From Gammaproteobacteria bacterium (GTDB lineage Bacteria; Pseudomonadota; Gammaproteobacteria; Chromatiales; Chromatiaceae), in NCBI GenBank assembly GCA_024275295.1, contig JAJRZI010000030.1, positions 1 to 53,675 on the forward strand: a stretch of DNA of 53,675 bases, written 5' to 3'. The notes beneath the pieces are model-generated. The model was not told the origin of the DNA. It worked only from the letters and a program-made list of their open reading frames with translations, and did not search any database. A program made the position numbers and the translations under genes. This document shows, one piece after another, positions 28,401-52,615 of this stretch (positions within the stretch are counted from its first letter, which is position 1; each line of letters begins with the position of its first letter).

Positions 28401-31400
28401 AACCCCTATGTGGAGACCGTGAGCCGAGGCCTGCACTCCATGTACACCAAGCTTTCCACTACCGGCATATCACCGCAGACCTATGGAGACCCCGACAGCA
28501 ATGGTAACCACATCGGTATCGGCGTAAACAGCGGGCGCTCTCCCTATGAAGGCGGCATGGTCATGGACGCCATTGCAAGCTCCGGCTCTCCCACTACTTT
28601 TGCTGATACCGGGGTGTCCAACGTAAGAAACCGCACCTACCAGGAGATTGCCCAGGATATGATCGATCAATATGCCTGGGGGCAGGATGATGACTCCCGT
28701 ACAGGTGCATGGCGTTATGGCTGGAATCAGTGGCCGGATAACTCCGCTGCCCAGTGGGGTGCTATTGGGGTATTGGCGCTGAAACATGTTTTCAACCTGG
28801 ATATGCCCCAGTGGGTAAAGGATCGCAACAATGTCTGGCTGAACTACAGCTTCAGCGGTGCAGGCTTCGGCTACACCGGCCCCGGAACCGGCCAGGCACT
28901 GACCCCATCCGGTCTGGTTCAGATGCCCATGGATGATCTGGAGACCTCAGATCCCCGCTGGATCGCCTCCGAAAACACCATCACCAATAACTGGAACAGC
29001 TGGTATAAGGGGAACTGCAACTACTACGCACTCTTTGCCCTCACCAAGGCAATGCGTCTGGCACTGCCTGGCCCAGTGGTAAATCTCACCGGAACAGGCA
29101 CATACAACGGACTGGACTGGTTCAACGACCCCATATCCGGCATTGCCCGTACGCTGATCGATGACAATTTTGCGACCAGCAACGGATCATTTGCTGGTAT
29201 CTGCGGCCATGCAAGGGGTAATCTGGCCAATGCCTGGGGCGTCATCATGCTCACCCCCACCCTGTTTGTACAGCCACCTGTGGCCGATACAGGTGATGAT
29301 CGGGTATGGGGGGTGGATGTGCCTATCACCTTTGATAGATCAGGATCATTCCATCTGGATCCATTCCGCAGCATCGTTAAATATGAATGGGATCTGGACG
29401 GTGACGGAAGCTACGACACCTCTGGCAGCAGCCCGACAGCCGCCTACACCTACACCGCAGCAAACTGCCCGGGTAGCGTGCTGCCCTGCAATATCACGGT
29501 AAGACTACGGGTAACAGATAATAATGACCCGGCACGGAGTGACACGGATACGCTCACGCTGATTGTAGCCGTACCGCCACATCCCCCGGTAGCCGATGCC
29601 GATGGCCCATACAGCTGTACTGCAGGAATCCCCTGCACCCTGGATGGCTCCAGTTCATTTGATATCGACCCCACCGACTTCATCACCGAATGGCAGTGGG
29701 ATCTGGACAACGACGGCCAGTTTGACGATGCCACCGGCAAGCAGCCTGTGGTGGTCTTTCCCACAGCTACCACAGCCCCACTGAATATCGGACTGCGGGT
29801 ACTGGACAATGCCGTAATGCACCCTCAGGGGCAGAAACTGGAAGACTTCGACTTTACCTCCGCAACCGTACTGGCCAACAATCCGCCTGTTGCAGATGCC
29901 AATGGCCCCTACACGGTCAATGAAGGTGCCAGCATCACCCTGGATGGCAGCGCCTCCAGTGATCCGGATAGCAACCCCATCACCTACGCCTGGGATCTGG
30001 ATAACGACGGCCAGTTTGATGATGCCACCGGCCCTACTCCAACCTTTGATGCGGCCACGCTGGATGACGGAACCTACACCATCGGCCTCAAGGTCAGTGA
30101 TTCCCTGCTGGAGGATACGATTACCACCACGGTAACCGTAACCAACGTGGCACCCGCAGTAAATGCAGGAGCCGATACCACAATCAACGAGGGAGACACC
30201 TTTACCCGGAGTAGCTCATTCACCGATCCGGGCAGCAATGACAGCTGGACCGCCACCGTAAACTATGGCGATGGCACCGGCGACCAGCCCCTTGCCCTGA
30301 ACCCGGACAAGAGCTTCAACCTGAGCCACACCTCCCCCGACAATGGGGTCTTCACTGTAACCGTCACCGTTACCGATGATGACGGTGGCTCCGGTAGCGA
30401 CAGCCTGACCCTGACGGTAGGCAATGTCACACCCGTCGTGGGCGCAGGGGCAGATGCCACTATTGATGAAGGCAATACCTTTACCCGGAGCGGCTCATTC
30501 ACCGACCCAGGCAACGACAGCTGGATCGCCACCGTCGACTATGGCGATGGCACCGGCGACCAGCCCCTTGCCCTGAACCCGGACAAGAGCTTCAACCTGA
30601 ACCACACCTTACCCAACAATGGGGTCTTCACTGTAACCATCACCGTTACCGATGATGACGGCGGCTCCGGTAGCGACAGCCTGATCCTGACGGTAAACGA
30701 CCTGAAACCGACTGCCGCCCTGAGTGGCGACACCCCGCTCAATGAAGGTCAGGCAGGCAACTACGACGCCAGCGGCTCCAGCTCCAGCCCGGATGCCATC
30801 ATCGGTTATGAGTGGGACTGGAGCTACGACGGCAGCCTCTTCCAGCCTTCGGGGGATATCGGTGCAACACAGCCCCATACCTGGATGGACAATGGGATCT
30901 ATACCGTGGCCGTACGGGTCACCGACGATGACGGCAGCACGGACATTGCCACCCTTGTGGTCAATGTCAATGGCGTCGGCCCAGTGGCTCAACTCAGCGG
31001 GAATATAACACTCGATGAAGGTCAGACAGGCAACTATGACGCCAGCGGTTCATTCTCAAACCCTGGCAGTATCGTCGGTTACGAGTGGGACTGGAACTAC
31101 AACGGGAGCAGCTTTAGTCCATCCGGCGACAGCGGTGCAATCAGGTCTCACACCTGGCTGGATAACGGCATCTATACCGTTGCCGTACGGGTCACCGACG
31201 ATGACGGCAGTACGGATATTGCCACCCTTGCTGTAACCGTAAATGATCTGGGGCCGACTGCCGTACTGAGCGGCAGCACCTCGCTCGACGCAGGTCAGGC
31301 CGGCAGCTATGACGCAAGCAGCTCCAGCTCCAGCCCGGATGCCATTATCAGCTACGAGTGGGACTGGAACTACAACGGCAGCAGCTTTAACCCATCCGGC

Positions 31401-31826
31401 GACAGTGGCACAACACAGACCCATGCCTGGGCAAGTGGTGGCAACTATACCGTTGCCGTGCGGGTAACCGATGACGACGGCAGCACCAGCATCGCAACCC
31501 TGCCGGTAACGGTGCAGGATCTCTCCATACCACCAACACCACCGATCGACGATCTGTATGCCCGTGCCAAGGACAGCAAACTCGATTTGGTATGGACACC
31601 CAAGTCCGGGGCAACAGGTTACAATGTCTATCGCAGCACTACCCTGGGAGGGCCATATACGCCCATAGCCACAAACCACCAGTGCGACTACTGTGCCTAT
31701 GCCGACTTTGGCCTGACCAACGGGACAACCTACTACTATGTAGTCACCTGGATCAGTGGCGGACTGGAGTCGGCCTACTCCAACGAGGCCTTTGCCACAC
31801 CACAGGCAAGGAGACGCAGACGCTAA
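22488..31826 (+). CDS. Giant multidomain surface protein, main body (MopE, FG-GAP, PKD, toroid, FN3)
   Basis: Continues in frame from the codon after the TGA; the first ORF start codon is near 22503, but no ribosome site supports separate translation. In order by DNA position: end of a PKD repeat; nine MopE-type Asp/Cys repeats (22841-24066); about five FG-GAP/VCBS-like repeats with DxDGDxD loops (24070-24960); PKD repeats (25000-28190), two of which contain an inserted about 165-residue module; an alpha/alpha-toroid-like region (28200-29270); further PKD repeats, five of them nearly identical (29275-31530); and a fibronectin type III domain (31540-31800). It ends in five Arg with no membrane anchor or PEP-CTERM tail. 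Such proteins are extracellular, calcium-binding, adhesive or structural. The real substrate is unknown. Confidence 0.85.
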   Translation, partial: LIGLQVAAPTGYNDVAYTHLSVNNVNSAPQITLTTPNVSVVIPHDGTSTFDVTATDADSDPITYVWDLDGNPVGNGNTYIYNAILADAGEHMVTVTISDGSNLSPDTRHTWRMTVSAPDNDNDGYPSNVDCNDSNPDINPGQTEVYHNGLDDDCDPATPDDPDADNDGYDYTIDCDESNAAINPGATEICNLVDDNCDGSIDEGFDVDNDGVTSCGGDCNDNDANIYPAATEICNLVDDNCNGTVDENFDIDGDGVTSCGGDCDDGDNNNYPGNTEVCDLQDNNCDSTIDEGFDADSDGFSQCALPIPDCDDNNANSYPGAPEICDSQDNNCNGSVDEGVNADNDGDGQTACGGDCDDSDPLNFSGNPEVCDNQDNNCDYAVDEGFDVDGDGISICALPTADCDDADNNNYPGNTEVCDLQDNNCDGVVDENFDLDGDSYSVCAVPLPDCDDSEPNNYPGNTEICDLIDNNCDGTIDESFDADGDGFSLCSTPTPDCDDSNPGVYPGRVEVFHNGIDDDCDAATSDDYANTFIIVTDDNGRIYYAQSNGDGSWSNYRQIAQLSGYIRGVAIADYDNDGDLDFTVGSPSGHTMSFYLFINDGTDNFSNAGIVGTGSNANSYQMDMTAGDFNHDGNMDFLGNSNWKYLHKAMGDGHGNFTITTIDLTIGNGRGMDTADFDHDGHLDYVRATYSSGQIILFRGDGSGGFINSGVVGDPGIDPYGVTAGDFNNDGHPDVIANYGSNGDAYFYAGNGDGTFVAGVYVGSIDFNNQGAYDNYDFNRDGNQDLVASTYSSRKIYYYPGNGDGTFGTAVLINPSNTPGNILGISAPPGAPPVGDPIPWITPVPYTGNKGDTVNLSGEFSTDDGNIMDYSWNFGDGNTATGMNVSHAFPNLEDNYTVTLQVTDNDGRIAISSGRVTLLGDTPVADAGGPYTFGEDFAVAGIYSVPLDGSASSDDGANPLQFDWDLGNGLNETFDSPDLHPGLWASSGATISSGEAVVTGAYGWNNRYLVTNQQYQRVAGASFTGRVGTASATDMMWGLKNTGNNYHYNQYPYAIHFANNGWIYIYEDGYSRGNKVTYTRGQSYDLRIDLKDGLGATYYYRLTGAPDWTLLYDSSHSTLSTFRLGAVVYQTAIHLDNFTAPSQTSSEELPNATYPEGAYNISLAVTDVVGQSDNDSTTVSLTHGAPPVAHPGGPYTPGEAQASCGNYTVAFNGSSSSDDSGRIYRYDWDFGDGTTGNGETPSHTYAAGGPVPSNYTATLVVTDHALQQNMITTTASVTPTPGAPPVADAGGDYNVDESAANAGLWTVNFNGNSSSDDTGLCDFAWTFGDGGTATGATPSHQYSAAGDYSASLTARDHALQSHQINFTVHVTVNDPPVADDGGPYTVDEGAAQGGQWTVGFDAGSSTDDNGIWKYEWDFGDGSNGTGAAPTHIYTVPGTYDVTLTITDNGRQTNSTTTQVTVGLNNPPVADAGPNHITEVGLPVTLDASGSTDDFGIYSFNWNFDVTEKWAHSGASMISNTALVTGAGNWGNRYLVSLDTFPRVAGESYTGRVGTAAGSIHMMWGLKNDSSNYHYNQFPHAIYFHDNSWIYIYENGSSRGNKVTYTKGEAYDVRIDVKAVGATYYYRLAGTGSWILIYDSSYASNSPLRIGATVHTGGFEFSDFVTPTGVIPLIFESGATRAVVDTTYLAPGVYNPTVTVTDNALQTDTDSTTITVLLGDPPVANTGGPYSTNEDIPTRFNGRGSSDDFGIKTYTWDFGDGSATLTSRNPWADHRYTVAGGYTATLTVTDFAGQTNTKSTSVAVSPDPVVTAVPWRFSGGIEVPHDSWSGKEATLKAVAWSLHEPLTYTLDFGDGSAPVSGTVSNKRFIQTKHTYTGVNGQPFIATITITDANSVTVSDNYLLRLRARSLDIETNIAIDNGLWYLHGQQSRSETNGFLYGEWSYSGYTASSTASATQAFEINGHLELGDVRENPYVETVSRGLHSMYTKLSTTGISPQTYGDPDSNGNHIGIGVNSGRSPYEGGMVMDAIASSGSPTTFADTGVSNVRNRTYQEIAQDMIDQYAWGQDDDSRTGAWRYGWNQWPDNSAAQWGAIGVLALKHVFNLDMPQWVKDRNNVWLNYSFSGAGFGYTGPGTGQALTPSGLVQMPMDDLETSDPRWIASENTITNNWNSWYKGNCNYYALFALTKAMRLALPGPVVNLTGTGTYNGLDWFNDPISGIARTLIDDNFATSNGSFAGICGHARGNLANAWGVIMLTPTLFVQPPVADTGDDRVWGVDVPITFDRSGSFHLDPFRSIVKYEWDLDGDGSYDTSGSSPTAAYTYTAANCPGSVLPCNITVRLRVTDNNDPARSDTDTLTLIVAVPPHPPVADADGPYSCTAGIPCTLDGSSSFDIDPTDFITEWQWDLDNDGQFDDATGKQPVVVFPTATTAPLNIGLRVLDNAVMHPQGQKLEDFDFTSATVLANNPPVADANGPYTVNEGASITLDGSASSDPDSNPITYAWDLDNDGQFDDATGPTPTFDAATLDDGTYTIGLKVSDSLLEDTITTTVTVTNVAPAVNAGADTTINEGDTFTRSSSFTDPGSNDSWTATVNYGDGTGDQPLALNPDKSFNLSHTSPDNGVFTVTVTVTDDDGGSGSDSLTLTVGNVTPVVGAGADATIDEGNTFTRSGSFTDPGNDSWIATVDYGDGTGDQPLALNPDKSFNLNHTLPNNGVFTVTITVTDDDGGSGSDSLILTVNDLKPTAALSGDTPLNEGQAGNYDASGSSSSPDAIIGYEWDWSYDGSLFQPSGDIGATQPHTWMDNGIYTVAVRVTDDDGSTDIATLVVNVNGVGPVAQLSGNITLDEGQTGNYDASGSFSNPGSIVGYEWDWNYNGSSFSPSGDSGAIRSHTWLDNGIYTVAVRVTDDDGSTDIATLAVTVNDLGPTAVLSGSTSLDAGQAGSYDASSSSSSPDAIISYEWDWNYNGSSFNPSGDSGTTQTHAWASGGNYTVAVRVTDDDGSTSIATLPVTVQDLSIPPTPPIDDLYARAKDSKLDLVWTPKSGATGYNVYRSTTLGGPYTPIATNHQCDYCAYADFGLTNGTTYYYVVTWISGGLESAYSNEAFATPQARRRRR
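22841..24066 (+). repeat. Nine MopE-type Asp/Cys repeats within the giant gene
   Basis: Nine tandem protein repeats of about 45 residues share the pattern D-C-D-D-x(4)-Y-P-G-x-x-E-x-C-D-x(3)-D-N-N-C-D-G followed by a D-x-D-x-D-G loop. This is the putative metal-binding motif seen in MopE-like surface proteins. The Asp loops look like calcium sites, and the regular Cys would form disulfides. The first and last repeats lack the middle Cys and carry HNG instead, giving matched end caps. Confidence 0.88.
25411..25914 (+). repeat. Inserted lectin-like module, copy 1, inside a PKD domain
   Basis: About 165 residues with the marks GRVGTA, MMWGLKN, YHYNQ, WIYIYE and RGNKVTY lie between the two halves of a PKD repeat (FDWDLGNG before, YNISLAVTD after). 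A second copy at 27001-27486 sits in the same place of another PKD repeat. The fold may be a concanavalin-like beta sandwich, but this is inference. Confidence 0.7.
27001..27486 (+). repeat. Inserted lectin-like module, copy 2, inside a PKD domain
   Basis: Matches the module at 25411-25914 with the same order of marks (GRVGTA, MMWGLKN, YHYNQ, WIYIYE, RGNKVTY, YYYRL). It begins after the FNWNFD strand of its host PKD domain and ends before the YNPTVTVTD strand. DNA identity with copy 1 is high in the core and lower at the edges, so the duplication is old. Confidence 0.7.
28200..29270 (+). other. Alpha/alpha-toroid-like region of the giant protein
   Basis: This stretch of about 355 residues has no PKD features. 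It shows repeated helical segments that recall squalene-cyclase/prenyltransferase repeats: NGLWYLHGQQ, AAQWGAIGVLAL, NCNYYALFALTKAM and ANAWGVIML. The assignment is by appearance only. It may be a binding or catalytic domain held by flanking PKD repeats. Confidence 0.5.
30150..31520 (+). repeat. Near-identical tandem PKD repeats
   Basis: Two units (about 30150-30430 and 30440-30710) share a nearly identical block around GDGTGDQPLALNPDKSFNL. Three more (about 30711-30985, 30986-31250, 31251-31520) share blocks around EWDWNYNGSSF and VAVRVTDDDGS. The close DNA match suggests recent duplication and a region prone to copy-number change and misassembly. Confidence 0.85.
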
Positions 31827-34958: not shown

Positions 34959-36332
34959 ATGATACCCGTCCAGAGCCTCCATTTTCGCCTGCTCTTTCCA
35001 TTTTCCATGGCCCTGATCCTGGCCATCGCACTGGCTTGGTGGATCGCCACCTCCATGCTGACCAGCACACTCGAGAATCGTTTGGAAAGACAGCTCGTGC
35101 ATGCCGGAGAGGTACTGGCCAACGGTGAACTTCCACTCACAAAAGAGCTCCTGCAGCGCCTGAGCCGCCTGCTGAGGGCAGACCTCATACTGATCCAGCC
35201 AGATGGCAAATTTGCCATATCAACCCTCGATGACAAATCTAACATAGCACCCGCATTGGCCACACATTGGCGTTCAGCACTGAGTCATACAAAAGCCACC
35301 ATCGTTCAAGAGAGAGGCGCCCCCTTTATGCTGGTCACCCAGCAGCTGTCCGAGAGCCGTGACCCCCGCTATCTGGCAGTTGCCGTGGTCGCATCTCTGG
35401 ACAACATTCAAAATGCCGCCAGTAGTACCGCCCGATGGCTGGGCACTGCCGCACTCTTTGGAATCATCATTCTGGGCTGGGCAGGCCACAAAGCGATCCT
35501 GGGCATTACCCAGCCGGTGCAGAAGCTGGCGCAGATGGCCGACCAGATCGCCACCGGGCGCCGTGAAATCCGGGTGGATATCGGACAGGCCAATGAACTC
35601 GGTGTACTGGCAAATGCACTGAACACGATGGCAGAGCGGTTGCAGGTTTACGAACGGGAGATCGCCGAGCAGAATCGCCTGGCAGCACTGGGCAGCATGG
35701 GGGCACGGATTGCCCATGAAATCCGCAATCCACTGACCGCAATCAAGCTGGAGTTGCAGCTTCTGGCCGAATCACTCCCCAGCGAACAACGGGGCACAGC
35801 AGATGCCCTGCTGGATGAGGTCAGACGCCTGGAACTCATTGCCACCAGCGCCCTTCAGGTCGGCCAGGGAACCCATCTATCCTGCAGACCAACCGATCTG
35901 AATGATCCGGTGAGCGAGGTCACTCGACTGTTCAAAACCCAATTTGATCACCGTAACATTCAACTGGAGAGTCTCCTGAAAAAGGATCAGCCACAGGTAC
36001 AGGTTGATCCTGATCGCATCAAACAGGTTCTGGTCAACCTGCTGGTCAACGCCGGGGATGCCTTGGCGGAGGGGGGCATCATCCGGGTTGGGACAGATAG
36101 AGGGCCAAACGAGGTGCTGTTTTGGGTGGAGGACTCCGGTCCGGGCATCCCTGCCAAACATCGTGCGACCCTCTTTTCTGGCGCCAGCAGCAGCAAGCCA
36201 GGCGGGCTGGGTATCGGCCTGAAACTCAGCAAAGAGCTGGTGGAGCTGCAGGGAGGAGAGATCCAGGTTGAGGAGAGCAGTCTGGGCGGCGCCCGATTTG
36301 TAGTCAGATTTCCTGTGGAGAAGAGGCCGTGA
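34959..36332 (+). CDS. Membrane sensor histidine kinase
   Basis: A 457-residue kinase paired with the next gene. Two membrane segments (about 12-32 and 160-180) enclose a periplasmic sensor of about 125 residues of unknown ligand. HAMP (about 182-235) is followed by HisKA with the phospho-acceptor His253 in AHEIRNPLTAIK and a HATPase domain with the N box (VNLLVNAGDAL), G1 (EDSGPGI) and a G2 region (GGLGIGLKLSK). The layout is that of NtrB/AtoS/ZraS-type kinases that drive sigma-54 activators. The end overlaps the regulator start by 4 bases. Confidence 0.93.
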   Translation: MIPVQSLHFRLLFPFSMALILAIALAWWIATSMLTSTLENRLERQLVHAGEVLANGELPLTKELLQRLSRLLRADLILIQPDGKFAISTLDDKSNIAPALATHWRSALSHTKATIVQERGAPFMLVTQQLSESRDPRYLAVAVVASLDNIQNAASSTARWLGTAALFGIIILGWAGHKAILGITQPVQKLAQMADQIATGRREIRVDIGQANELGVLANALNTMAERLQVYEREIAEQNRLAALGSMGARIAHEIRNPLTAIKLELQLLAESLPSEQRGTADALLDEVRRLELIATSALQVGQGTHLSCRPTDLNDPVSEVTRLFKTQFDHRNIQLESLLKKDQPQVQVDPDRIKQVLVNLLVNAGDALAEGGIIRVGTDRGPNEVLFWVEDSGPGIPAKHRATLFSGASSSKPGGLGIGLKLSKELVELQGGEIQVEESSLGGARFVVRFPVEKRP

Positions 36333-37735
36333 ACAAGATTCTGGTCGTAGATGATGAGCATGCCATCTGCCAGGCATTTTCAAAGATCCTGCAGTTGGAG
36401 GGACATACCTCGCTGATCGCCGCCAACGGCAATGAGGCCCTGGAACTGGCGCGCAGTGAGCGGCCCGATGCCGTATTTATGGACATCCAGATGCCCGGTG
36501 CCGATGGCCTGACCGCCCTCGAACAGCTACAGGCCGAGTTTCCGGATCTGCCGGTAATTATCATGACCGCCTATGGCACGATTGATACGGCAATGAAAGC
36601 GATGCAGCTGGGGGCCTTCGACTACCTTGGCAAGCCGGTGGAGCTACCACAGATACGCAGCCTGCTGGCACGCGCACTGCACAAACCTGAATCCACTACA
36701 GATGGCTCGACGCCACCCTCCCCGGCAGAACAGGGCACACTGGTCGGTCAGAGCGCCCCTATGCAGGAGGTGTTCAAGCTGATGGGACTGCTTGCCAGAA
36801 ATGATCTGACTGTACTGATCACCGGGGAGAGCGGCGTAGGCAAGGAGCTGGTGGCCAAAGGCATCCACAGATACAGCAACCATCGGGAAGAGCCATTTGT
36901 CGCCATCAACTGCGCCGCCATCCCTGAACAACTGCTGGAAAGCGAGCTGTTTGGACATGAGAGAGGCGCCTTTACCGGGGCATCGGAACGCCGCATAGGG
37001 CACTGTGAAATGGCCGGAGAGGGCGTACTCTTTCTGGATGAGATCTCCGAACTACCCTATCCGCTGCAGGGGAAACTGCTCCGGGTACTCCAGGAACGCA
37101 GCTTTGAGCGTGTTGGAAGCAGCCTCTCCATCCCGCTAAAAGCCCGAATCATTGCCGCCAGCAATCAAAACCTGGAGCAAGAGATGAAGGCTGGCCGCTT
37201 CCGGGAGGATCTCTATCACCGGTTAAATCTGGTGACCCTGCATATACCGCCACTGCGCAAGCGTGAAGGAGACATCAAACTGCTGGCTCACCATTTTTTG
37301 CAGCAGGCCAATCATGAACTGCACAAGGCACTGCAAGGCATCGAAAGCGATGCACTGGAGCTGCTGCGCCAGCACCACTGGCCAGGCAATGTCCGGGAAC
37401 TCGAACACACAATCAAACGCTCGGTACTGCAGGCCCGGGGGCAGGTACTCTCCCACCATGATCTGGATCTGAAATGCAACAAGCACCCGCTGACAGCACA
37501 CGACAACAGCACGGAGGAGACAACATACAGCCACCTGGGCAGTGCCGCACGCGCTGCATTGAACCAGCTCTGCAGTGACGATCAGCAGGATGCCCCGTTT
37601 CATCGACTGGTCAGCTTCATCGAGCAGGAGTTGATTGATGAGGCACTGCGGCTCTCGGAAGATAATCAGGTCACCGCCTCCCGGCTTCTCGGCCTGCATC
37701 GTTCAACACTGCGTAAAAAGATGCGCAATCGCTGA
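36329..37735 (+). CDS. Sigma-54-dependent response regulator (NtrC type)
   Basis: A 468-residue activator. Receiver domain: acidic pair DD at 8-9 and phospho-Asp52 (FMDIQMP). AAA+ domain: Walker A GESGVGKE near 165-172, the sigma-54-contacting GAFTGA loop near 213, and Walker B LFLDEISELP. C-terminal Fis-type helix-turn-helix: TASRLLGLHRSTLRKK. All parts needed for activation look intact. It starts at GTG 36329 inside the kinase stop. It is the last gene before the regulatory region of the inositol/ebo operon, which holds a sigma-54 promoter candidate, so that operon is the most likely target. Confidence 0.95.
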   Translation: MNKILVVDDEHAICQAFSKILQLEGHTSLIAANGNEALELARSERPDAVFMDIQMPGADGLTALEQLQAEFPDLPVIIMTAYGTIDTAMKAMQLGAFDYLGKPVELPQIRSLLARALHKPESTTDGSTPPSPAEQGTLVGQSAPMQEVFKLMGLLARNDLTVLITGESGVGKELVAKGIHRYSNHREEPFVAINCAAIPEQLLESELFGHERGAFTGASERRIGHCEMAGEGVLFLDEISELPYPLQGKLLRVLQERSFERVGSSLSIPLKARIIAASNQNLEQEMKAGRFREDLYHRLNLVTLHIPPLRKREGDIKLLAHHFLQQANHELHKALQGIESDALELLRQHHWPGNVRELEHTIKRSVLQARGQVLSHHDLDLKCNKHPLTAHDNSTEETTYSHLGSAARAALNQLCSDDQQDAPFHRLVSFIEQELIDEALRLSEDNQVTASRLLGLHRSTLRKKMRNR

Positions 37736-37834
37736 CCTGAAATTGCACAGCCCAGCAGGCAGCCTGGCGCATCTTATGCAAGATACTGTTGTAATTGAAT
37801 AATTCACACAAAAAACCCGCCCTGGCAAACCATT

Positions 37835-37855
37835 GCTGTACAGTACCAATACAGC
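37835..37855. promoter_or_regulatory. Inverted repeat, candidate upstream activator site
   Basis: GCTGTA and TACAGC form a perfect 6-bp inverted repeat with 9 bases between, 95-115 bases upstream of a sigma-54 -24 box. Position and symmetry suit a dimeric NtrC-type activator, and such a protein is encoded next door. Only one clear copy was found. Confidence 0.4.
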
Positions 37856-37949
37856 CGCACCGCATTTCAGCACTTCACCCCACGGGCACGCCAGTTATAA
37901 CACCATGATTTATCTAAAGAATAATGGAATTCTCGAACATTTAAAGTAT

Positions 37950-37965
37950 TGGCCCAATATATGCC
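37950..37965 (+). promoter_or_regulatory. Sigma-54 promoter candidate for the inositol/ebo operon
   Basis: TGGCCCAATATATGCC has GG and GC separated by exactly 10 bases and matches TGGC-C of the -24 box; the -12 box is ATGC rather than TTGC. The start would be near 37976, giving a leader of about 260 bases before the first gene. Confidence 0.5.
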
Positions 37966-37980
37966 TCGTTATTCGCAAGT

Positions 37981-38124
37981 GAAACCAAACGCTTGAATTA
38001 TGGTTTCCGATTAGCCTGATCCATTCTCCTCCCAGTCAGGCTAATGAGCATGCCAGCCTCCCCCATAGTTATACTGGCAGATGCAAACAGACAGGAACGG
38101 CCGTGTATCTACGGATACACGGCC
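37981..38124 (+). promoter_or_regulatory. Leader with four consecutive stem-loops
   Basis: Just after the predicted start site lie four perfect inverted repeats in a row: GAAACC/GGTTTC (37981-38007), ATTAGCCTGA/TCAGGCTAAT (38010-38045), TGCCAG/CTGGCA (38051-38079) and GGCCGTGTATC/GATACACGGCC (38099-38124). The last has a C-UACG-G tetraloop of the very stable UNCG class. No T-run follows, so simple termination is unlikely. mRNA stabilisation, attenuation, or a REP/MITE-like element are possible. Confidence 0.6.
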
Positions 38125-38237
38125 CTACTGTACCAACCGGTGCATGCTCAGAAAAGCAAAACCAAGTATACTCCGGCATGATTAGCCTATATGTAGTACA
38201 GGTGGTATATGGCTGGTCACACCAAGGGAGAGAAGTA

Positions 38238-39473
38238 ATGAATCAAAGCAGTACCAATAAAGTTGGCGTCTGGATAGCGGGGGCACATGGAGACATTTCG
38301 GCCACACTGATCATAGGCACATTGGCACTGACCAAAGGGCTAATCTCTCAGGCAGGCATCACCACTGAACTCCCCCCCATGAACCGGCTCTCCCTGGCCA
38401 GGCCTGGCGATCTGATTTTTGGTGGCATGGATATTTCAGATCTCTCATTGGTGGATAGCGCCGAGTCGCTCTATAAAACCTCACGCACTCTGTCCCGTGA
38501 ACTGCTGGATGCCGTTACGGAAGAGCTGGGCATAATCAATGAAGATATTCTGGTAAACAATAATTTCAAATGGAATCCTGCTGGCCCTAATCCCAGCATG
38601 CCAACCCTCACAGAACTGGCTGATGAAATAACTAGCGGCATAGACGCTTTTCGGGAGAGACATAACCTCAGTCATGTAGTGGTGGTTAATCTCACCTCAT
38701 CAGAACCCGAGCCAGAGATTTCATCCCAACATGCCACCATCGAAGGGCTGCAAACGCTCATCAGCAAGAACCGTAAAGATCATATCTCTCCCAGCATCCT
38801 GCTCGTCTATACAGCCCTGACCGCCAGTTGCTCCTATCTCAATTTCACCCCGAATTACGGAACCAAACTCGGTGGCATCAGAGCACTGGCCCAGCAGCAA
38901 TGCCTCCCCTTCTATGGCAATGATGGAAAAACCGGAGAGACACTGGTCAAAACCGCGCTTGCCCCGATGTTTGCCTTCCGCAACCTGCAGGTGCTGAGCT
39001 GGGAAGGTACCAACATGCTGGGCAACAACGATGGCAAGACCTTGCATCAACCGGCCAACCGCGTCGCCAAGCTGCGTAACAAAGGCCATGTTTTAGAGAA
39101 TATTCTGGGGTACGAACCGCACTCTGGCGTTGATATCAACTATGTCCCTTCACTCGGCGACTGGAAAACCGCCTGGGATCTGATCCACTTCCAGGGATTT
39201 CTGGATGTAAAGATGAGTATGCAGTTCACCTGGCAGGGCTGTGACTCCATTCTGGCCGCCCCACTGGTGCTCGATATGGTGCGGTTTAGCGAATTTGCCG
39301 CAAGAAATGGAGAGGCTGGCCCGATGCAACATCTGGCCTCCTTTTTTAAAGACCCGATGGATGTCCCTGAAATGGCGCTTCACACCCAGTTTGAACGGTT
39401 GCTGAAGTACACCGAAAAGCATCTTTCAAACCAACAGGCGACTACTGCAAGCAGACTGAATCAAGCGGGTTAA
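38238..39473 (+). CDS. Inositol-3-phosphate synthase-like protein
   Basis: Expected to convert glucose-6-phosphate to 1L-myo-inositol-3-phosphate with NAD as internal cofactor. The 411-residue protein opens with a Rossmann-type strand and GAHGDIS loop (about 10-20) and carries the family core GKTGETLVKTALAPMF, then LSWEGTNMLGNNDGKTL at about 255-270. The start at 38238 follows GGGAGAGAAG; the upstream in-frame extension to 38103 lies in hairpin sequence. Such synthases are found next to ebo genes in other bacteria. Being first in the operon, it may supply an inositol head group for the metabolite made by the rest. A related non-inositol activity cannot be excluded. Confidence 0.85.
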   Translation: MNQSSTNKVGVWIAGAHGDISATLIIGTLALTKGLISQAGITTELPPMNRLSLARPGDLIFGGMDISDLSLVDSAESLYKTSRTLSRELLDAVTEELGIINEDILVNNNFKWNPAGPNPSMPTLTELADEITSGIDAFRERHNLSHVVVVNLTSSEPEPEISSQHATIEGLQTLISKNRKDHISPSILLVYTALTASCSYLNFTPNYGTKLGGIRALAQQQCLPFYGNDGKTGETLVKTALAPMFAFRNLQVLSWEGTNMLGNNDGKTLHQPANRVAKLRNKGHVLENILGYEPHSGVDINYVPSLGDWKTAWDLIHFQGFLDVKMSMQFTWQGCDSILAAPLVLDMVRFSEFAARNGEAGPMQHLASFFKDPMDVPEMALHTQFERLLKYTEKHLSNQQATTASRLNQAG

Positions 39474-39479
39474 CGCTCA

Positions 39480-40205
39480 ATGAGAGCATCAATAACATGG
39501 ATATCACACCTGGTAGTTACCACACTGGGTGCCATTATGATTTCAGCCTCAGTTATCCATACAGCCGGGGATTTCATGCCGCCGGGTGAACAGCTCCTGC
39601 TATTAAGTGGCTGCAGCCTGCTCAGCGCTGCTATTGTGCTGATCTCCCATGCCATAGAGCGCCCAACAAATCTGCCTCATCAACTGCTCCAGGCTGCCAG
39701 CGCAGGCATCAGCACCCTGTTGGTTGTATGGTGGCAAACACCCTTGTCTCTCAGCTCTCCCATGCTATGGAAGCTGGCGCTCGGGCTATGCCTGCTCACC
39801 TTCGCCATGACAGCCATAGCAGGATTACTCACTACTTTAAGTAATAGCCACAACAGCGCCATATACTGGACAATGCTGTTGCTACTGATAACCACCAGCG
39901 CCCCACTCTGGCTTGGGCCGGCAGTGGAACCTCTCTATTTAGGAGAGACGATCATCAACGCCATCATCACCACCAGCCCCTTGAGTTATCTCGCCACACT
40001 GGCTGACTGGGACTATCTGCGTGGTGAATGGTTTTACCGTCATACACCTTTTGGCGGACTGCGCTTTGACTACCCCTCTATCCCGATAACAAGCCTGGTC
40101 TATCTGACTATCGGGCTAACATGCCACTACATCAGCAAGGCAATTGGGCTGCGTCAAACAACAGGTGACAACTGTATAAAACCTCACCCATCACCATCCC
40201 TATAG
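39480..40205 (+). CDS. Multipass membrane protein of unknown function
   Basis: A 241-residue protein with about six hydrophobic segments (about 8-28, 36-56, 65-85, 95-120, 127-147 and 195-220). A charged, aromatic-rich loop (DWDYLRGEWFYRHTPFGGLRFDY) at about 177-200 is the most distinctive part. No family was recognised. It starts 6 bases after the inositol synthase stop. Position suggests a membrane partner of the operon's product pathway. Confidence 0.7.
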   Translation: MRASITWISHLVVTTLGAIMISASVIHTAGDFMPPGEQLLLLSGCSLLSAAIVLISHAIERPTNLPHQLLQAASAGISTLLVVWWQTPLSLSSPMLWKLALGLCLLTFAMTAIAGLLTTLSNSHNSAIYWTMLLLLITTSAPLWLGPAVEPLYLGETIINAIITTSPLSYLATLADWDYLRGEWFYRHTPFGGLRFDYPSIPITSLVYLTIGLTCHYISKAIGLRQTTGDNCIKPHPSPSL

Positions 40206-40219
40206 GAGCAATGTAAAAG

Positions 40220-41305
40220 ATGAATCTTGTACGCAAAATAATCACACTTTGCTTTATTTTTATACTTCCATTGTCAACAGTAATAGCTGATGACAACATG
40301 GATCCTGCACTAAAAAGCAAAGCCAAACGTGCCGCAGACGAGGGGCTGCACTATCTGCGCCAGACACAGGCTGAAGATGGCTCCCGGTCAAAATCTGTTG
40401 GTGTCACCGCACTTGCACTGCGTGCATTTCTGGAAAACCGCAGAGGCTATACGGAAGATGACGGCCCCTTCATCACACGTCCTGTCGCATTCCTGCTCAA
40501 GCATGTCAATGAAGACGGCTCCATCAGCGAGACCAATCATAACCGCAACTACAATACAGCAGTGGCCATTACCGCCCTGCAGGCGACCCACAATCCAAAG
40601 TATGCGGATATCATCCAGAATGGACAAAAATTCCTTAAAGGACTGCAACTGGACAAAGAAGATGGCTATGAACCCAGCCATAAATACTATGGCGGCATCG
40701 GCTATGGCGGTGACGAACGCCCGGATCTCTCCAACATCTACCACGCCCTTGAATCCCTGAAGGCTACCAGCTTTGATGACAAAGACCCCTTATGGGAAAA
40801 AGCCATGACCTTCATCTCCCGCAGCCAAAACAACAGCGAGACCAATGATCAGGGCTGGGCCGGTAATGATGGCGGCTTTGCCTATATGCCAGGTTATAGC
40901 CCGCATGGCGATGCCGTATCCTACGGCAGCATGACCCACGCCGGACTGCTCAGCCTGCTGTTTGCCGGTGCCGACAAAGATGATCCGCGCGTAAAGGCCT
41001 CCTATGAGTGGATCCGCAACAATTACACACTGGATGAAAATCCAGGTGCCAAGAAAAACCAGGGGCTGTTCTATTATTACAATGCATTTGCCAAAAGCAT
41101 GTATGCCTTTGGCGAAGCCAGGATCACCGACGGCAAGGGAGTCACTCACAACTGGCGTAATGACCTGACAAACAAACTACTGAGCATACATGAGAAAGAT
41201 GGCAGCTGGGTAAACAGCGATTCACCACGCTGGTGGGAAGGTGACAAAAACCTCTGCACCGCCTGGGTTGTCATCGCTCTGAATCATGTCATTAAAAAAC
41301 CCTGA
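40220..41305 (+). CDS. Periplasmic prenyltransferase/squalene-cyclase-repeat protein
   Basis: A 361-residue exported protein with a signal peptide (cleavage near VIA-DDN). The mature part looks like an alpha/alpha-toroid of the squalene-cyclase/prenyltransferase repeat type: AADEGLHYLRQTQAEDGSRS, GVTALALRAF, YNTAVAITALQA, QKFLKGLQ and CTAWVVIALNHV, with Gly-rich GGFAYMPGYSPHGDAVSYGSMTHAGLLSLL. The DxDD acid motif of true class II cyclases was not seen, so it may bind rather than cyclise isoprenoids. Similar toroid proteins often sit beside MoxR/DUF58/VWA genes, as here. Confidence 0.8.
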   Translation: MNLVRKIITLCFIFILPLSTVIADDNMDPALKSKAKRAADEGLHYLRQTQAEDGSRSKSVGVTALALRAFLENRRGYTEDDGPFITRPVAFLLKHVNEDGSISETNHNRNYNTAVAITALQATHNPKYADIIQNGQKFLKGLQLDKEDGYEPSHKYYGGIGYGGDERPDLSNIYHALESLKATSFDDKDPLWEKAMTFISRSQNNSETNDQGWAGNDGGFAYMPGYSPHGDAVSYGSMTHAGLLSLLFAGADKDDPRVKASYEWIRNNYTLDENPGAKKNQGLFYYYNAFAKSMYAFGEARITDGKGVTHNWRNDLTNKLLSIHEKDGSWVNSDSPRWWEGDKNLCTAWVVIALNHVIKKP

Positions 41306-41314
41306 GAGGCCTGA

Positions 41315-41336
41315 TTATCTTAAAATGGGAAGATAA
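41315..41336 (+). promoter_or_regulatory. Intercistronic hairpin
   Basis: TTATCTT and AAGATAA form a perfect 7-bp stem in the only sizeable gap (44 bases) of the early operon, just before the GTG start at 41350. It could tune expression of the downstream genes. Confidence 0.4.
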
Positions 41337-41349
41337 ACCACCAACTATA

Positions 41350-42798
41350 GTGAGCCATTTACTCAAACTAACTATTGCCCTGCAGCTGATCTTGATGGCT
41401 GTCAACTCATACGCCATAGAGGATATGGCCGTCAAGATCACCCCTGCCTGGGAAGGGCGCATTCAATCAGGAAACACCACTGAACTAGGCATACAGATCA
41501 TCTCATCCCGGGGTGGTGACTTCAGGCTCACGCTAAAGGGGGGTAACCTCATAACCCATCATGCTGGAACCCTGGAGGCTGACATGCCATTGAGACTCTG
41601 GATTCCGGTACGCCCCGCTTCCAATCAGCCATTAGCCATTGAGATCTATCGTGCGGGAAATCTTGCCTTTCAGCAACAACTCAACTTTATACCCAGCCAG
41701 CAGGGATTCTACGCAACAACCCTGGCTGCACCCTTGCCAGATAGCACTGACAAAAGCCGGCCGAATATCACTTTTGTGCCGGATGAGCTGCCAAGAACAG
41801 ACCAGGGTTATGGCTCAATCCAAACACTGGTACTAACGCCCTCTAATTTAGCCGATCTTGATAAAGCGCAGACATTGGCCCTCAGCAGTTATCTATATGC
41901 ATGCAAAGAACTACTGCTGATCAATGCCAACAACGATCTGCTCAATCAACTACGCCACATTGCCGGCTGCAATGGGCGCGCCATTCATCTGTTTCAGGCA
42001 AAGCCAAAAAACAGGGTTCACTATTCATCACCATCGACGGGAGCGTTACAGGCTTTACTGCATGAGACAAAAAAGCAGAACCCCATCGCCACCCTCTCTC
42101 TCTTCTTCGGCTGCTACCTCGGCATTCTGTTACTGATGCTACGCGCCACTCGCAAACCCGCCCTACTGCTCATCATACCAACACTGGGCACTATCACCCT
42201 GGTTGCAGCTTGGACACTGCAGGAAAACCATACACGCCTGGCAAGTTGGTCTGAAGTAGAGAGCGGCAGTCAACAAGCCAATTTTTCAGCACTGTTGAGT
42301 GTAGAAGGGTTAAATGTTGATCGTTATCATCTACAGTTATCCAGGGCATTGGGGCTACCACAACCATCGAACAACAGAACCATTGAACTGAAATTCAATC
42401 AACACCAACCATCCACTGAGCAACTGACACTCACTACCCAACCGCTTATTCATGATCGGTTTTTGTTTCAGGGGTCGTTTCCCGTTCCATACAAACTCTC
42501 GTTGATTACAGATGAGGCTACGCCTATTGTCATTAATCACGGGGACAAGACTGCCACCGGAGCAATGCTATATTGGCAAGACAAAATCCTCGCTGTACCC
42601 CCTTTAGCACCGGGCAGACAGTGGACGCCAACCAGCACAGATACTATAGAAATATCCAGCACTTTTCATTCAATGATCAGAGCACGTACCATCTCTGATA
42701 GCGCAGCACTTATTCTACCCTTTACACTCAAAGAGGCCGGGTTATTACCTTCGCATGTACAGGAGTCAGGATGGTTACTGATCAGGCCAGCCACATGA
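41350..42798 (+). CDS. Membrane-linked protein of unknown function
   Basis: A 482-residue protein starting at GTG 41350; the ribosome site is weak. A signal peptide (about 5-22, SYA-IE) leads to a beta-rich periplasmic part (about 25-225), two membrane segments (about 240-256 and 262-280), and a second beta-rich periplasmic part (about 290-470). No family was recognised. Similar topology is seen in unnamed proteins encoded before MoxR/VWA modules, but the link is only by context. The stop overlaps the next start. Confidence 0.65.
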   Translation: MSHLLKLTIALQLILMAVNSYAIEDMAVKITPAWEGRIQSGNTTELGIQIISSRGGDFRLTLKGGNLITHHAGTLEADMPLRLWIPVRPASNQPLAIEIYRAGNLAFQQQLNFIPSQQGFYATTLAAPLPDSTDKSRPNITFVPDELPRTDQGYGSIQTLVLTPSNLADLDKAQTLALSSYLYACKELLLINANNDLLNQLRHIAGCNGRAIHLFQAKPKNRVHYSSPSTGALQALLHETKKQNPIATLSLFFGCYLGILLLMLRATRKPALLLIIPTLGTITLVAAWTLQENHTRLASWSEVESGSQQANFSALLSVEGLNVDRYHLQLSRALGLPQPSNNRTIELKFNQHQPSTEQLTLTTQPLIHDRFLFQGSFPVPYKLSLITDEATPIVINHGDKTATGAMLYWQDKILAVPPLAPGRQWTPTSTDTIEISSTFHSMIRARTISDSAALILPFTLKEAGLLPSHVQESGWLLIRPAT

Positions 42799-43271
42799 GA
42801 GAGCTTCAGCATAGTGTTTGGGCAGGGGTGGCCTATACCTTGCCACTCCTGATCTGGAGTCTACTCCAGTTGCAAAACGTGGTAGGGAGTGAGTCCACCT
42901 TAAATACATTGCAGAGCAGCATCAGCGTTGCAGTTATCATCCAGGCCATTGTTGTCTCTCTGTATATACCTCGGCTGCAGGGCAACGCCACATCAGGTGA
43001 AACCCTCTCCGCCATTCTGATGCTGATCAGCATACCCTGGCCATTTTTTGCATTGGCCTGGTTGGTGGGCGCCATCACTATCAACACTATCTCTGTCTCT
43101 CAAGGCGGTCTTATTTTATATGCGCTGCTACTGTTCGCTGCAACCCGGGCTTTGATTCACATCAATCTTCAAAGCACCAACAAAAATCTTGTGCTCTCCG
43201 GACTTCAGTTGACTGCCATCACTCTTGTCATCCTCTTTCCATCGGAATGGATAATGGAGGCTGGATTGTGA
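42795..43271 (+). CDS. Small multipass membrane protein
   Basis: About 158 residues from ATG 42795, which overlaps the previous stop as ATGA; the frame is open to 42771. Four to five hydrophobic segments fill nearly the whole length (about 10-30, 40-60, 75-100, 105-120, 133-150). No family was recognised. Tight coupling on both sides suggests it acts with its neighbours. Confidence 0.65.
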   Translation: MRELQHSVWAGVAYTLPLLIWSLLQLQNVVGSESTLNTLQSSISVAVIIQAIVVSLYIPRLQGNATSGETLSAILMLISIPWPFFALAWLVGAITINTISVSQGGLILYALLLFAATRALIHINLQSTNKNLVLSGLQLTAITLVILFPSEWIMEAGL

Positions 43272-44431
43272 ACGCCTATAACGAAGCCAGTCTGACGCAA
43301 CTTATACGCCAAACCAGAAATCACCTCTGGAAGGAATCACTGCTGCACAGCATAAATACCAGCCTTTGGATATCCGCCACACTGGTGATAATAACAGGTA
43401 TTGGACACCTTTTTTTGGCATGGCCAAATATGCATCAGGCTGGACTTGTTATGGCCTTGCTTCCGCCACTGCTAGCGTTTCTATTTTGTCTACTGTTTCA
43501 GAGACCCGGTATGGAAGCAGCATCCCGCACTGCCGATAGATGGTTTAATGCCGATTCACTGTTACTGTCGGCCTGGGATCTTATACAGCACCCCACTCCC
43601 CACTCTGCCACTGGCCAACTGGTTATAAGGCGGGCACTGAAAAAAACATCCACTTGGCAATCACAGATTAAAACACATTCTGCGATGGTATTTCCCCGTT
43701 CGTCAGCTCTGGCTGCTACAGGCATGCTGATTGGAGCAACCTTGCTGTCACTACCTGGCGGAACACAACAGCTGCAAGACCAATCCAACACTCAATTTGC
43801 CAGCGCAAAACCGATTGAAACAGCAAACCCATTGGCCGATATCGCCCGCTCTTTTAGCCAGCCATCCAAGCCGATACCAGACTTAAATGCAGCGACAAAA
43901 AACAATAATGCCAATGCTGTCACCATGGATACCATGCCCCGGAACAGCGCAGGCAAAAAGGAGGAATCAACGTCCGCTCCAGAGACAGAGCAGCAGGCCC
44001 ATCATCCCTTGCCATCAACTGACCGGATCTCAGCAGCAAATCAGATCGACAGGGATGGAGGCACACCAATAGGAACGCCATCGCACTCCAGCAGTCAACC
44101 ACACAAAGCAGACAAGCAAAAACATGATATAGCAGGGAGTACCAAGGCCATTGAAGGTATCCAGCAAACATACGACAAGGCTGGCACTTTGGCTGTCTCA
44201 ACCATCCAAATTAAACGCCGTGCCGATGCTGATGACAGCCGTTATTCCACTCACCACCAAGGGGCACCACTTGCCGATTTTAATCTTCCAACACAACCAA
44301 GCGCAGCAGGAAGAGCCGTAGTCGCTGCCGAGATTGGGAACACCCCTCTCTATCCAGGGCATTTCAACCTATCTCAGCAACACCTCATCGCACAGTACTT
44401 TCAAAATCTGCATTCAGGAGCAGAGAAATGA
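43268..44431 (+). CDS. Membrane protein with Pro/Ser/His-rich linker, unknown function
   Basis: About 387 residues from GTG 43268, chosen because GGAGG lies 7 bases upstream and the start overlaps the previous stop as GTGA; an ATG at 43247 would sit before that ribosome site. Two membrane helices (about 30-80) and a third segment near 150-165 are followed by a long low-complexity, charged linker (about 190-300) and a small C-terminal region with HFNLSQQHLIAQYFQNL. The layout recalls large unnamed proteins found beside MoxR genes. No catalytic motif was seen. It overlaps the MoxR gene by 4 bases. Confidence 0.65.
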   Translation: MNAYNEASLTQLIRQTRNHLWKESLLHSINTSLWISATLVIITGIGHLFLAWPNMHQAGLVMALLPPLLAFLFCLLFQRPGMEAASRTADRWFNADSLLLSAWDLIQHPTPHSATGQLVIRRALKKTSTWQSQIKTHSAMVFPRSSALAATGMLIGATLLSLPGGTQQLQDQSNTQFASAKPIETANPLADIARSFSQPSKPIPDLNAATKNNNANAVTMDTMPRNSAGKKEESTSAPETEQQAHHPLPSTDRISAANQIDRDGGTPIGTPSHSSSQPHKADKQKHDIAGSTKAIEGIQQTYDKAGTLAVSTIQIKRRADADDSRYSTHHQGAPLADFNLPTQPSAAGRAVVAAEIGNTPLYPGHFNLSQQHLIAQYFQNLHSGAEK

Positions 44432-45432
44432 CAGCAGAGCCTCATTCAATTGAGACAGAGTTCAAAACCGCCCAGCAGGATTTCATCCAACTGCAAACGG
44501 CATTAGAGGCAACCATTGTAGGCCAGCAACAGCTTATTACAGAACTGCTGGCTGCCATATTCGCAGGCGGCCACGTTCTGCTTGAAGGCCTGCCTGGATT
44601 AGGCAAGACCCATCTGGCAAAGGCCCTGGCCACCGCTATGGGGATGAACCTGGGTCGCATCCAGTGTACCCCGGATCTGATGCCCGCTGACATCACCGGC
44701 AGTGAACTCCTGCTGCAAAATGAGGCTGGAGGACAACAATTCGAATTTCGCCGTGGCCCCATATTTTCCAGTATGGTGCTGGTGGACGAGATCAACCGCG
44801 CCACCCCAAAAACCCAGGCGGCACTGCTTGAGGCCATGCAGGAGGGCCAGGTAACCCAGGCAGGTCAACGCCATCTCCTGCCCTCTCCCTTCTGGGTGTT
44901 GGCAACTCAAAACCCGATTGAGATCGAGGGCACCTACCCCCTGCCGGAGGCACAGCTGGATCGTTTTCTTGCCAAGATCAATATCCACTACCCCGATGCT
45001 GACGCCCTGCTCAGGATGATCGACATCTCACTGGATGATGAGCCTGCTGAACATATAGGCGTCATACTTCAGCCGGAGAGGGTGCAGCAGATTATGGCAC
45101 TCATCCAGCAGTTGGTGATTGCCACACCACTCAAGCAGGCTGCCGTCGACCTGATTCTGGCCACACACCCAACACCAGGGGGCAGCCCCTCTTCAACTGC
45201 CAGACACTTCCGATACGGTGCAAGCCCCAGGGGGTTGCAGGCGCTGCTACGCATGGCCAGGGTTCACGCCTTTATCCATGGTCGCGCCCATCTGGCGCTT
45301 GAAGATATTCGTCAGGCAGCCATTCCCGCACTTAGGCACAGAGTCTTGTTAAACATTGAGAGTGAGCTTGATGGTGTGGATATAGACAGTGTATTAACAG
45401 AACTCATCAATCAATGGGAACACCAGCAGTAG
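44428..45432 (+). CDS. MoxR-family AAA+ ATPase
   Basis: A 334-residue cytoplasmic AAA+ ATPase of the MoxR branch, thought to act as a chaperone that inserts metals or helps assemble complexes together with VWA proteins. Walker A is GLPGLGKT at 54-61, Walker B LVDEINRA near 115, sensor 1 near ATQNPIE, and the C-terminal lid domain follows from about 215. It is followed by DUF58 and VWA proteins, the normal partner set. The last bases overlap the DUF58 start. Confidence 0.95.
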   Translation: MTAEPHSIETEFKTAQQDFIQLQTALEATIVGQQQLITELLAAIFAGGHVLLEGLPGLGKTHLAKALATAMGMNLGRIQCTPDLMPADITGSELLLQNEAGGQQFEFRRGPIFSSMVLVDEINRATPKTQAALLEAMQEGQVTQAGQRHLLPSPFWVLATQNPIEIEGTYPLPEAQLDRFLAKINIHYPDADALLRMIDISLDDEPAEHIGVILQPERVQQIMALIQQLVIATPLKQAAVDLILATHPTPGGSPSSTARHFRYGASPRGLQALLRMARVHAFIHGRAHLALEDIRQAAIPALRHRVLLNIESELDGVDIDSVLTELINQWEHQQ

Positions 45433-46325
45433 CTCACCCGCTCAGGGCACTCAATCAAGCCGAACTGATTCGCCTGGCGAGGGTCGCTGATCGTCTCCTT
45501 TCCGGGCGCCCCAAGATCACCCCCGGCAATCGACCACACAAGCTGCGGGCGGGGCACGGCATTGAGTTTCTCGATCACCGGGCATTTATGCCTGGCGATA
45601 ACCCGCGCGATATCGATTGGCGTGCAACAGCACGTAGCCGTAACCCACAAATCCGCCGGTTTCGTAATGAGACATCATCCGACTGGTTTATCTGCCTGGA
45701 CCGCAGTGCATCAATGAGCCTGGGCAATGGCAGGAAATGGGCACTCGCCGTGCAACTTACCGCTGCCCTCGCCTATCTGCTGATACACTTGGACAATCGG
45801 GTCGGCCTGCTCACCTTCAGTGATCGTGTCGATGGATTCAAACCACTGGGGCGCGGCCATCATGCCTACGCTGCACTGTTGCGTCTACTGGAGTCAACCC
45901 ACCCCAGAACATCAGGGGGCGGCACGCTGCTCAACGGCTGCGCATCACAGTTGCAAAGCGGCAGCCAGATCATTGTCATCAGCGACTTTCTGACCGCTGA
46001 CAGTCTACAACCTGGACTCAAACTTCTTGCAGGAATCGGAGAGGATCTGCATGCAGTGCAGGTACTGGACGAGAATGAAACCCTGCTCCCACAATCCGGG
46101 GCTTTATCTTTGCGTGACATTGAAACCAATGAAAAGATCAGCATCCACCCCACAGCAGAGGTTCAGAAACAGGCGGAACAGCAGTTAGCCAACCTCATCA
46201 AAAACCTGCAACTGCATTGTCAAAAGCACCAGATTGCCTTTACCTCCTGCACCACCGCAGATAACTGGAAGAGCATTCTGCTTGAACACCTGACATCATT
46301 GGGGCTGTTCAATGCCAAGCCTTGA
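45414..46325 (+). CDS. DUF58 protein with VWA-like MIDAS
   Basis: A 303-residue protein of the DUF58 family, regular partner of MoxR. The DUF58 core shows GHGIEFLDHRAFMPGDNPRDIDWRATAR, and a VWA-like domain follows with the MIDAS sequence DRSAS near 96-100 and a later ISDF strand. No membrane segment is present, unlike some DUF58 proteins, so it is probably cytoplasmic. Its start lies inside the end of moxR and its stop overlaps the next gene. Confidence 0.9.
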   Translation: MGTPAVAHPLRALNQAELIRLARVADRLLSGRPKITPGNRPHKLRAGHGIEFLDHRAFMPGDNPRDIDWRATARSRNPQIRRFRNETSSDWFICLDRSASMSLGNGRKWALAVQLTAALAYLLIHLDNRVGLLTFSDRVDGFKPLGRGHHAYAALLRLLESTHPRTSGGGTLLNGCASQLQSGSQIIVISDFLTADSLQPGLKLLAGIGEDLHAVQVLDENETLLPQSGALSLRDIETNEKISIHPTAEVQKQAEQQLANLIKNLQLHCQKHQIAFTSCTTADNWKSILLEHLTSLGLFNAKP

Positions 46326-50354: not shown

Positions 50355-50904
50355 GATCGTGGTTTGGGACCCTTTGGTACGCCTGTTTCATTGGACACTT
50401 GTCATCGCATGCATAACGGCCTATCTCACCCAGGAAGAGGAGTACGACCTGCATCTTCAAACCGGATACCTGATTATCGGCCTGATCTGCTTTAGAATCA
50501 TCTGGGGCTTCATCGGTTCAACTCATGCCCGCTTTGGTGATTTTGTCTACCGACCCGGCACAGTCATTGACTATCTTAAAGAGAGCAGAAACAGTCAGGC
50601 CAAGCGTTATCTTGGGCACAACCCTGCCGGTGGCGTTATGGTGGTTTTGATGCTGCTCACGCTGCTCACTATTACACTCAGCGGCGTGGCGCTGGATGCC
50701 GCAGAAAATCGGGCAGGCCCCCTTGCAGGCAGCCAGCTGTTTCTCTACACCGACATGATCAATATGATTCACAATCTATCCACTCACATTGCAACCGCCA
50801 TGGTTGTGCTGCACATTCTGGGCGTTATATTCTCAGCAAAGGCACATAACGAAAACCTGGTACTGGCCATGATTACAGGTAAAAAACGGGATCAACAAAT
50901 CTGA
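50329..50904 (+). CDS. Cytochrome b561-type membrane protein
   Basis: A 191-residue di-heme b-type cytochrome of four membrane helices, likely passing electrons between quinol and a periplasmic partner. Candidate heme His are at 21 (RLFHWTL), 42 (LHLQTGYL), and two late ones near 147 and 159 (IHNLSTHIATAMVVLHILG). The family motif WDPLVRLFHW is clear. The start overlaps the VWA gene and the stop overlaps the next start. Its presence suggests a redox step in the pathway. Confidence 0.9.
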   Translation: MAMRQNNNKIVVWDPLVRLFHWTLVIACITAYLTQEEEYDLHLQTGYLIIGLICFRIIWGFIGSTHARFGDFVYRPGTVIDYLKESRNSQAKRYLGHNPAGGVMVVLMLLTLLTITLSGVALDAAENRAGPLAGSQLFLYTDMINMIHNLSTHIATAMVVLHILGVIFSAKAHNENLVLAMITGKKRDQQI

Positions 50905-51737: not shown

Positions 51738-51741
51738 TTCA

Positions 51742-52605: not shown

Positions 52606-52615
52606 CTAGCATATA

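Follow-up and report, generated by a model that had tools for sequence, protein, structure and literature searches.

The window analysed here, a stretch of 53,675 nucleotides from a gammaproteobacterium of the Chromatiaceae, carries on its forward strand a gene for a sensor histidine kinase (34959-36332; HAMP, HisKA and HATPase_c domains in Pfam) followed by one for an NtrC-type response regulator (36329-37735; PF00072, PF00158, PF02954), the presumed activator of what lies downstream. Beyond a gap comes ino1, a member of the myo-inositol-1-phosphate synthase family (38238-39473; PF07994, PF01658) and the first gene of a presumed operon, the rest of which (39480-53530, same strand) was delineated by domain searches and by relatives with similar gene order. 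Its products we take to be a membrane protein, a squalene-cyclase-like protein, MoxR, DUF58, two VWA proteins and cytochrome b, as well as a TIM-barrel isomerase, an EboC-like UbiA protein and EboA.

The regulator consists of a receiver, a sigma-54 AAA+ domain with GAFTGA, the loop that contacts sigma-54, and a Fis-type HTH, and its motifs (receiver Asp, Walker A/B, GAFTGA, Fis-type HTH) are intact. The best NCBIfam model is ntrC with 478.7 bits, below the cut-off of 558.6, and the regulator stays under the cut-off for all of the best 25 of 122 matching models. The recognition helix reads R-[TS]-T-L-R in all 13 aligned regulators. In six regulators of the related genus g21 (L086-L091) GAFTGA is replaced by GAFTSA, and in L095 by GAFSGA. 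The H, N and G1 boxes of the kinase are present in the window and in 11 aligned relatives, G1 being divergent in L096.

The gap between the end of the regulator frame and the ATG of ino1 at 38238 holds both elements named in the preliminary description, which had also placed them correctly between the two genes. The TGG-N10-GC pattern is found with TGG at 37950-37952 and GC at 37963-37964, the end noted earlier (37965) being one C too far, and it forms part of the putative sigma-54 -24/-12 element TTGGCCCAATATATGCC read at 37949-37965 on the forward strand. The inverted repeat GCTGTA-N9-TACAGC (37835-37855) has its arms at 37835-37840 and 37850-37855, and is presumed from its sequence and conserved spacing to be an upstream activator site. 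Its 17-bp core TGTA-N9-TACA (37837-37853) starts 113 bp upstream of the sigma-54 element. The search for further copies that had been suggested found the repeat without mismatch at this locus only in the own genome.

Within the window by itself, promoter and dyad are barely above chance. Bare TGG-N10-GC is not enriched (192 occurrences on both strands, 185.4 expected), and when the gap is scored against the full sigma-54 consensus the site at 37949-37965 reaches 9, the best score, 10 (p 0.038 by shuffling), belonging to another site at 37764-37780. The 10-base dyad TGTAC-N7-GTACA is matched at 9/10 positions (p 0.015 by shuffling), and two more TGTA-N9-TACA cores occur in the window at 9938 and 18454. 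Sigma-70-like matches (9 of 12) number three in the region, compared with 1.1 (sd 1.2) in shuffles, and one of them is on the right strand (37897-37925). Relatives were therefore compared.

At a threshold of E 1e-60 or better, ino1 was found in 16 of the 210 family genomes searched, the own genome included, and in nine of 61 genera. Five further genomes from the window's genus gave no match, and 369 genomes drawn from the class gave only the own genome; the order-level search repeated the 210-genome set and added nothing to it. Fifteen family loci were fetched for comparison, L039 from a separate scan being the same contig as L085 and counted once. Eleven of the 15 have the same order of kinase, regulator, gap and ino1, and the longer loci continue after ino1 with genes for a membrane protein, a squalene-cyclase-like protein, MoxR, DUF58 and VWA proteins. 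Together with the window, loci having the regulator directly before ino1 make a set of 12 syntenic gaps from six genera. In L083, L092 and L094 an adjacent regulator was not found in the fetched DNA, and L093 is without one, yet has the promoter element. The sigma-54 factor gene rpoN is present in all 16 ino1 genomes (TIGR02395 over cut-off).

What lifts the predicted pair above chance is that these relatives conserve both elements as well as the distance between them. Eleven of the 12 syntenic gaps contain TGGC-N8-TGC, the exception being L084; outside that set it occurs once in L083 and is absent from L092 and L094. In eight of the 12 gaps an exact TGTA-N9-TACA precedes the sigma-54 element by 113-117 bp (113 bp in the window, 116 in L082, 115-117 in L086-L091); these eight come from three of the six genera (g1, g12 and g21), and L082 has an extra dyad copy 219 bp upstream of its promoter element. 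L085 (g43) has a weaker dyad at 117 bp (7/10 bases, p 0.03), and no dyad at the conserved spacing was found in L095 (g16), L096 (g39) or L093 (g36). Among five g21 species, 15 of the 17 dyad positions and 15 of the 17 promoter-box positions are invariant, compared with 62-71% of the flanks. Fisher's test over seven representatives without the window gives p 6.5e-7 for the promoter element and 3e-6 for the 10-base dyad; both values are too optimistic, because the dyad pattern was partly picked from the sequences tested and two pairs of the representatives are congeneric. Searched as one combined pattern in the 16 ino1 genomes, promoter and dyad match this locus in eight and only two further sites, which both lie in the own genome; none of the 16 has a match to the reversed control.

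A genuine local sigma-54 promoter with an enhancer in the gap is thus well supported by the comparison, as is the idea from the preliminary description that RpoN control is local and exerted by the neighbouring regulator: the element, the dyad at its spacing and the confinement of the combined pattern to this locus in seven of eight positive genomes go together with intact regulator and kinase motifs and with rpoN throughout. The best overall explanation, and very probably the correct one, is that the promoter at 37949-37965 is activated by the neighbouring kinase/regulator pair. It is built on what the comparison shows, namely both DNA elements with their spacing and the leader described below with its folding and conservation, from which we infer binding, start, operon extent and the role of the leader. 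The phosphorylated regulator would bind the dyad at 37837-37853, as co-occurrence and spacing suggest, and through DNA looping its AAA+ domain would open the RNA polymerase-sigma-54 complex. Transcription would start near 37976, yield a folded leader bearing C-rich loops on two hairpins and run on into ino1 and the ebo-type genes.

Two other ways of reading the gap have to be weighed against this. The working sigma-54 element might be the site at 37764-37780, just after the regulator gene, with the dyad serving something else; its consensus score is the higher one, but it sits 72 bp upstream of the dyad, which is the wrong way round, and of the 11 relatives in which the regulator adjoins the gap, L084 alone has a TGG-N10-GC within 125 bp downstream of the regulator gene, at a different offset. 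Lying on the wrong side of the dyad and lacking a counterpart in relatives, this site was rejected, and we regard it as hardly credible that it is the promoter. Somewhat less remote, though still unlikely, is a real promoter served by another sigma-54 activator such as NtrC. The own genome does encode another regulator of the same type (C65, 42% identity), and in L093, L095 and L096 the promoter is not accompanied by a clear dyad at the conserved distance; against this, three genera have dyad and promoter immediately after this very regulator gene, and seven of the eight positive genomes show the combined pattern nowhere else, which suits a regulator acting locally better than a global one.

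Activation by the adjacent regulator may extend to other sites in the own genome. At C83:6628-6759 on the reverse strand (L163), a dyad TGTACAAAAAGCATACA lies 117 bp upstream of TGGCCCAATATGTGC, a sigma-54 element one letter off that of the window, and precedes a TonB-dependent receptor gene whose best model is a heme receptor subfamily, below cut-off; judged from these letters and their spacing, it is a probable second target. The combined pattern at C84:237-369 (L150/L164), with a spacing of 118 bp and roughly 470 bp ahead of where an exported-protein frame probably starts, marks a possible one. Single motifs were of little use for finding a regulon. TGTAC-N7-GTACA alone was rejected, since it gave 21 sites with at most one mismatch in the own genome compared with 38 in the reversed control, and the single perfect site of that search is inside a coding frame (L097). 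YTGGC-N7-WTGCY alone was rejected for too many matches in the own genome (110 forward and 112 reverse); its reversed control gave 14 and 10, an unfair yardstick because the neighbouring bases are changed. Within the window, a strong sigma-54-like element TTGGATCAAATTTTGCTT at 18882-18899 precedes a PEP-CTERM gene (19026-19712) whose product weakly matches the model of the floc protein PepA. Since that good element has no TGTA-N9-TACA in 18600-18882, the gene was kept out of the regulon.

The promoter is of a known kind; the less expected part is a structured leader between it and ino1, absent from the preliminary description. With a start predicted near 37976, about 12 bp after the GC, the transcript would begin 262 nt ahead of ino1. 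Its first 150 nt (37976-38125, forward strand) are strongly folded in prediction (-53.9 kcal/mol, z -5.64, none of 200 shuffles as good), compared with z -1.02 for a control stretch at 37786-37935. Three hairpins are predicted on the forward strand: A (38010-38045) with the stem ATTAGCCTGA/TCAGGCTAAT and the C-rich loop TCCATTCTCCTCCCAG, B (38051-38079) with the stem TGCCAG/CTGGCA and the C-rich loop CCTCCCCCATAGTTATA, and C (38099-38124) with the 11-bp stem GGCCGTGTATC/GATACACGGCC. No U tract follows hairpin C, and a terminator scan of the region found only a 6-bp stem at 37976-37995.

The genus g21 (L086-L090) has a similar architecture, in which two hairpins with C-rich loops are followed, at the place corresponding to hairpin C, by a terminator hairpin with a U tract, scanned in L086 and invariant in its letters in the five species. 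Over the g21 leader 132 of 139 columns are invariant (95%), compared with 62-75% around it and 75% in the stretch after, and its folding z is -2.52. The intrinsic terminator would end the leader in this genus, so that the product of the promoter there would be a small RNA on its own or else a leader subject to attenuation. In the sixth g21 species (L091) the leader is missing and dyad and promoter are retained directly before ino1; the link between promoter and operon is therefore independent of the leader. Other lineages gave z of -3.95 (L082), -2.65 (L085), -1.68 (L095), -1.59 (L093) and +0.21 (L096), on stretches that correspond only approximately to the leaders.

Leaders can be aligned within one genus only. 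Across genera the common feature is hairpins with C-rich loops (CCCC or CUCC), of which seven leaders from seven genera hold 12, whereas shuffles hold 1.8 (sd 1.2, largest 6 in 300) and windows from the same loci would lead one to expect 0.8; the antisense strand has one, the stretch upstream of the promoter one and the rest of the leaders none. These statistics include L093, exclude L084 (no promoter assigned) and L091 (43-nt leader), and leave out L087-L090, which are near copies of L086. The L084 gap holds two such hairpins, and none was found in L083, L092 or L094. As the pattern was first noticed in the window and L086, the five other lineages were also taken together (Fisher p 5.7e-5); L082, L095 and L096 are not significant singly. 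No Rfam family matches the window over its gathering threshold, and at E up to 10 the window leader has four unrelated sub-threshold matches and the L086 leader none. DNA searches of the 210 genomes with these two leaders as queries returned only the known loci and short matches of 20-39 bases, with no counterpart in other genera and no second copy.

On this comparative evidence the leader is a candidate regulatory RNA. That its hairpins are meaningless chance folds of a C-rich region seems improbable: the leaders are indeed rich in C (29-46%), three lineages are not significant one by one and folding is weak in L093, L095 and L096, but such folds would account poorly for the near-invariance of the g21 leader amid variable surroundings, for the folding z of the window leader and for the Fisher value obtained without the two lineages where the pattern was noticed. 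An even chance may be given to the leader working in cis, as an attenuator or a stability element for the ino1 operon, rather than as a trans-acting RNA. The g21 terminator lies inside the leader, with no sigma-70-like match in that gap, and the leader is dispensable in L091; on the other side, C-rich apical loops that recur while stems and sequence change are the design of the trans-acting sX13 (PMC3771888). More tentatively, and on balance doubtfully, the leader could be a sigma-54-driven small RNA outside Rfam that uses its C-rich loops in trans on G-rich ribosome-binding sites, with read-through into the ino1/ebo pathway in addition.

Several known systems resemble parts of this arrangement. 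The NtrC site itself differs from TGTAC-N7-GTACA. NtrC-family systems share with the locus the receiver, the AAA+ domain with GAFTGA, the Fis-type HTH and a palindrome about 100-150 bp upstream of the -24/-12 element, the distance given for sigma-54 enhancers (PMC7057263). The target here, however, is an ino1/ebo-type operon, and the regulator falls short of the family models as described above. For the layout, the nearest design is CbrA/CbrB, where the activator gene is followed by an RpoN promoter making the small RNA CrcZ, an antagonist of Hfq-Crc (PMC6292655). The RNA proposed here differs in having C-rich hairpin loops and in standing ahead of a biosynthetic operon. LuxO-Qrr and GlrR-GlmY are further parallels. 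For the loops, the nearest design is sX13, described as trans-acting with stable stems and apical C-rich loops (PMC3771888); the window leader has two such hairpins, CCCC or CUCC at the apex. Unlike sX13-like RNAs, the leader would be sigma-54 driven and precedes an operon, and it matches no Rfam family at gathering score.

The operon appears to resemble the ebo cluster (eboABCDEF), with ino1 standing in for EboD. In the window the EboA domain is over its cut-off and the EboC-like UbiA protein reaches 177.5 bits, below the cut-off of 250; the relative L166 (671-7078) adds EboE over cut-off together with TatD-like and phosphodiesterase proteins. In contrast to the canonical cluster, EboD was not found, ino1 heads the operon and extra MoxR/DUF58/VWA and squalene-cyclase-like genes are present. 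A search for EboD via the DHQ_synthase superfamily (PF01761) gave exactly one match in each of the 16 ino1 genomes, always on another contig or far away from ino1 and presumably AroB. EboD is a protein of this superfamily and the proposed maker of the cyclitol that EboC prenylates (PMC5133447). With ino1 in its place, an inositol-derived prenyl lipid would fit as the product; the papers on ebo that the literature searches listed lacked the inositol terms. Outside the family, a UbiA or TIM-barrel relative is near ino1 in 10 of 26 loci (three Planctomycetota, six actinobacteria and one Deltaproteobacterium), and ino1 stands beside relatives of these genes in Planctomycetota and actinobacteria (L049-L051, L057-L062). 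A giant repetitive protein and, next to it, a small exported protein are also encoded near the ino1/ebo genes (window 22503-31826); L168 (1028-8979) seems to have a similar pair near its own, to go by a visual comparison of gene order and N-terminal residues.

The methyltransferase and YdjY genes had also been proposed to belong to this pathway, which stands only in part. By tblastn, one or both are near ino1 in four of the 15 family loci (both in L091, YdjY in L093 and L094, the methyltransferase in L095). Among the 26 loci outside the family, both are found in L043 (Brocadiaceae), and L046 and L055 have a single weak match each. The L043 cluster, from a bacterium of the anammox group, comprises YdjY, the methyltransferase, ino1 and two squalene-cyclase-like genes, and suggests a module that moved between phyla.

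The locus offers a precise, testable regulatory link, with a putative site, promoter and regulator, for an ino1/ebo-type pathway, along with a candidate conserved RNA situated between the sigma-54 promoter and the operon. Because these genomes have ino1 and no EboD, being able to induce the operon would also make it easier to identify what the ebo genes produce. If the tentative small-RNA reading is true, one signal and one promoter would jointly govern an RNA regulator and an operon of the cyclitol-lipid type.
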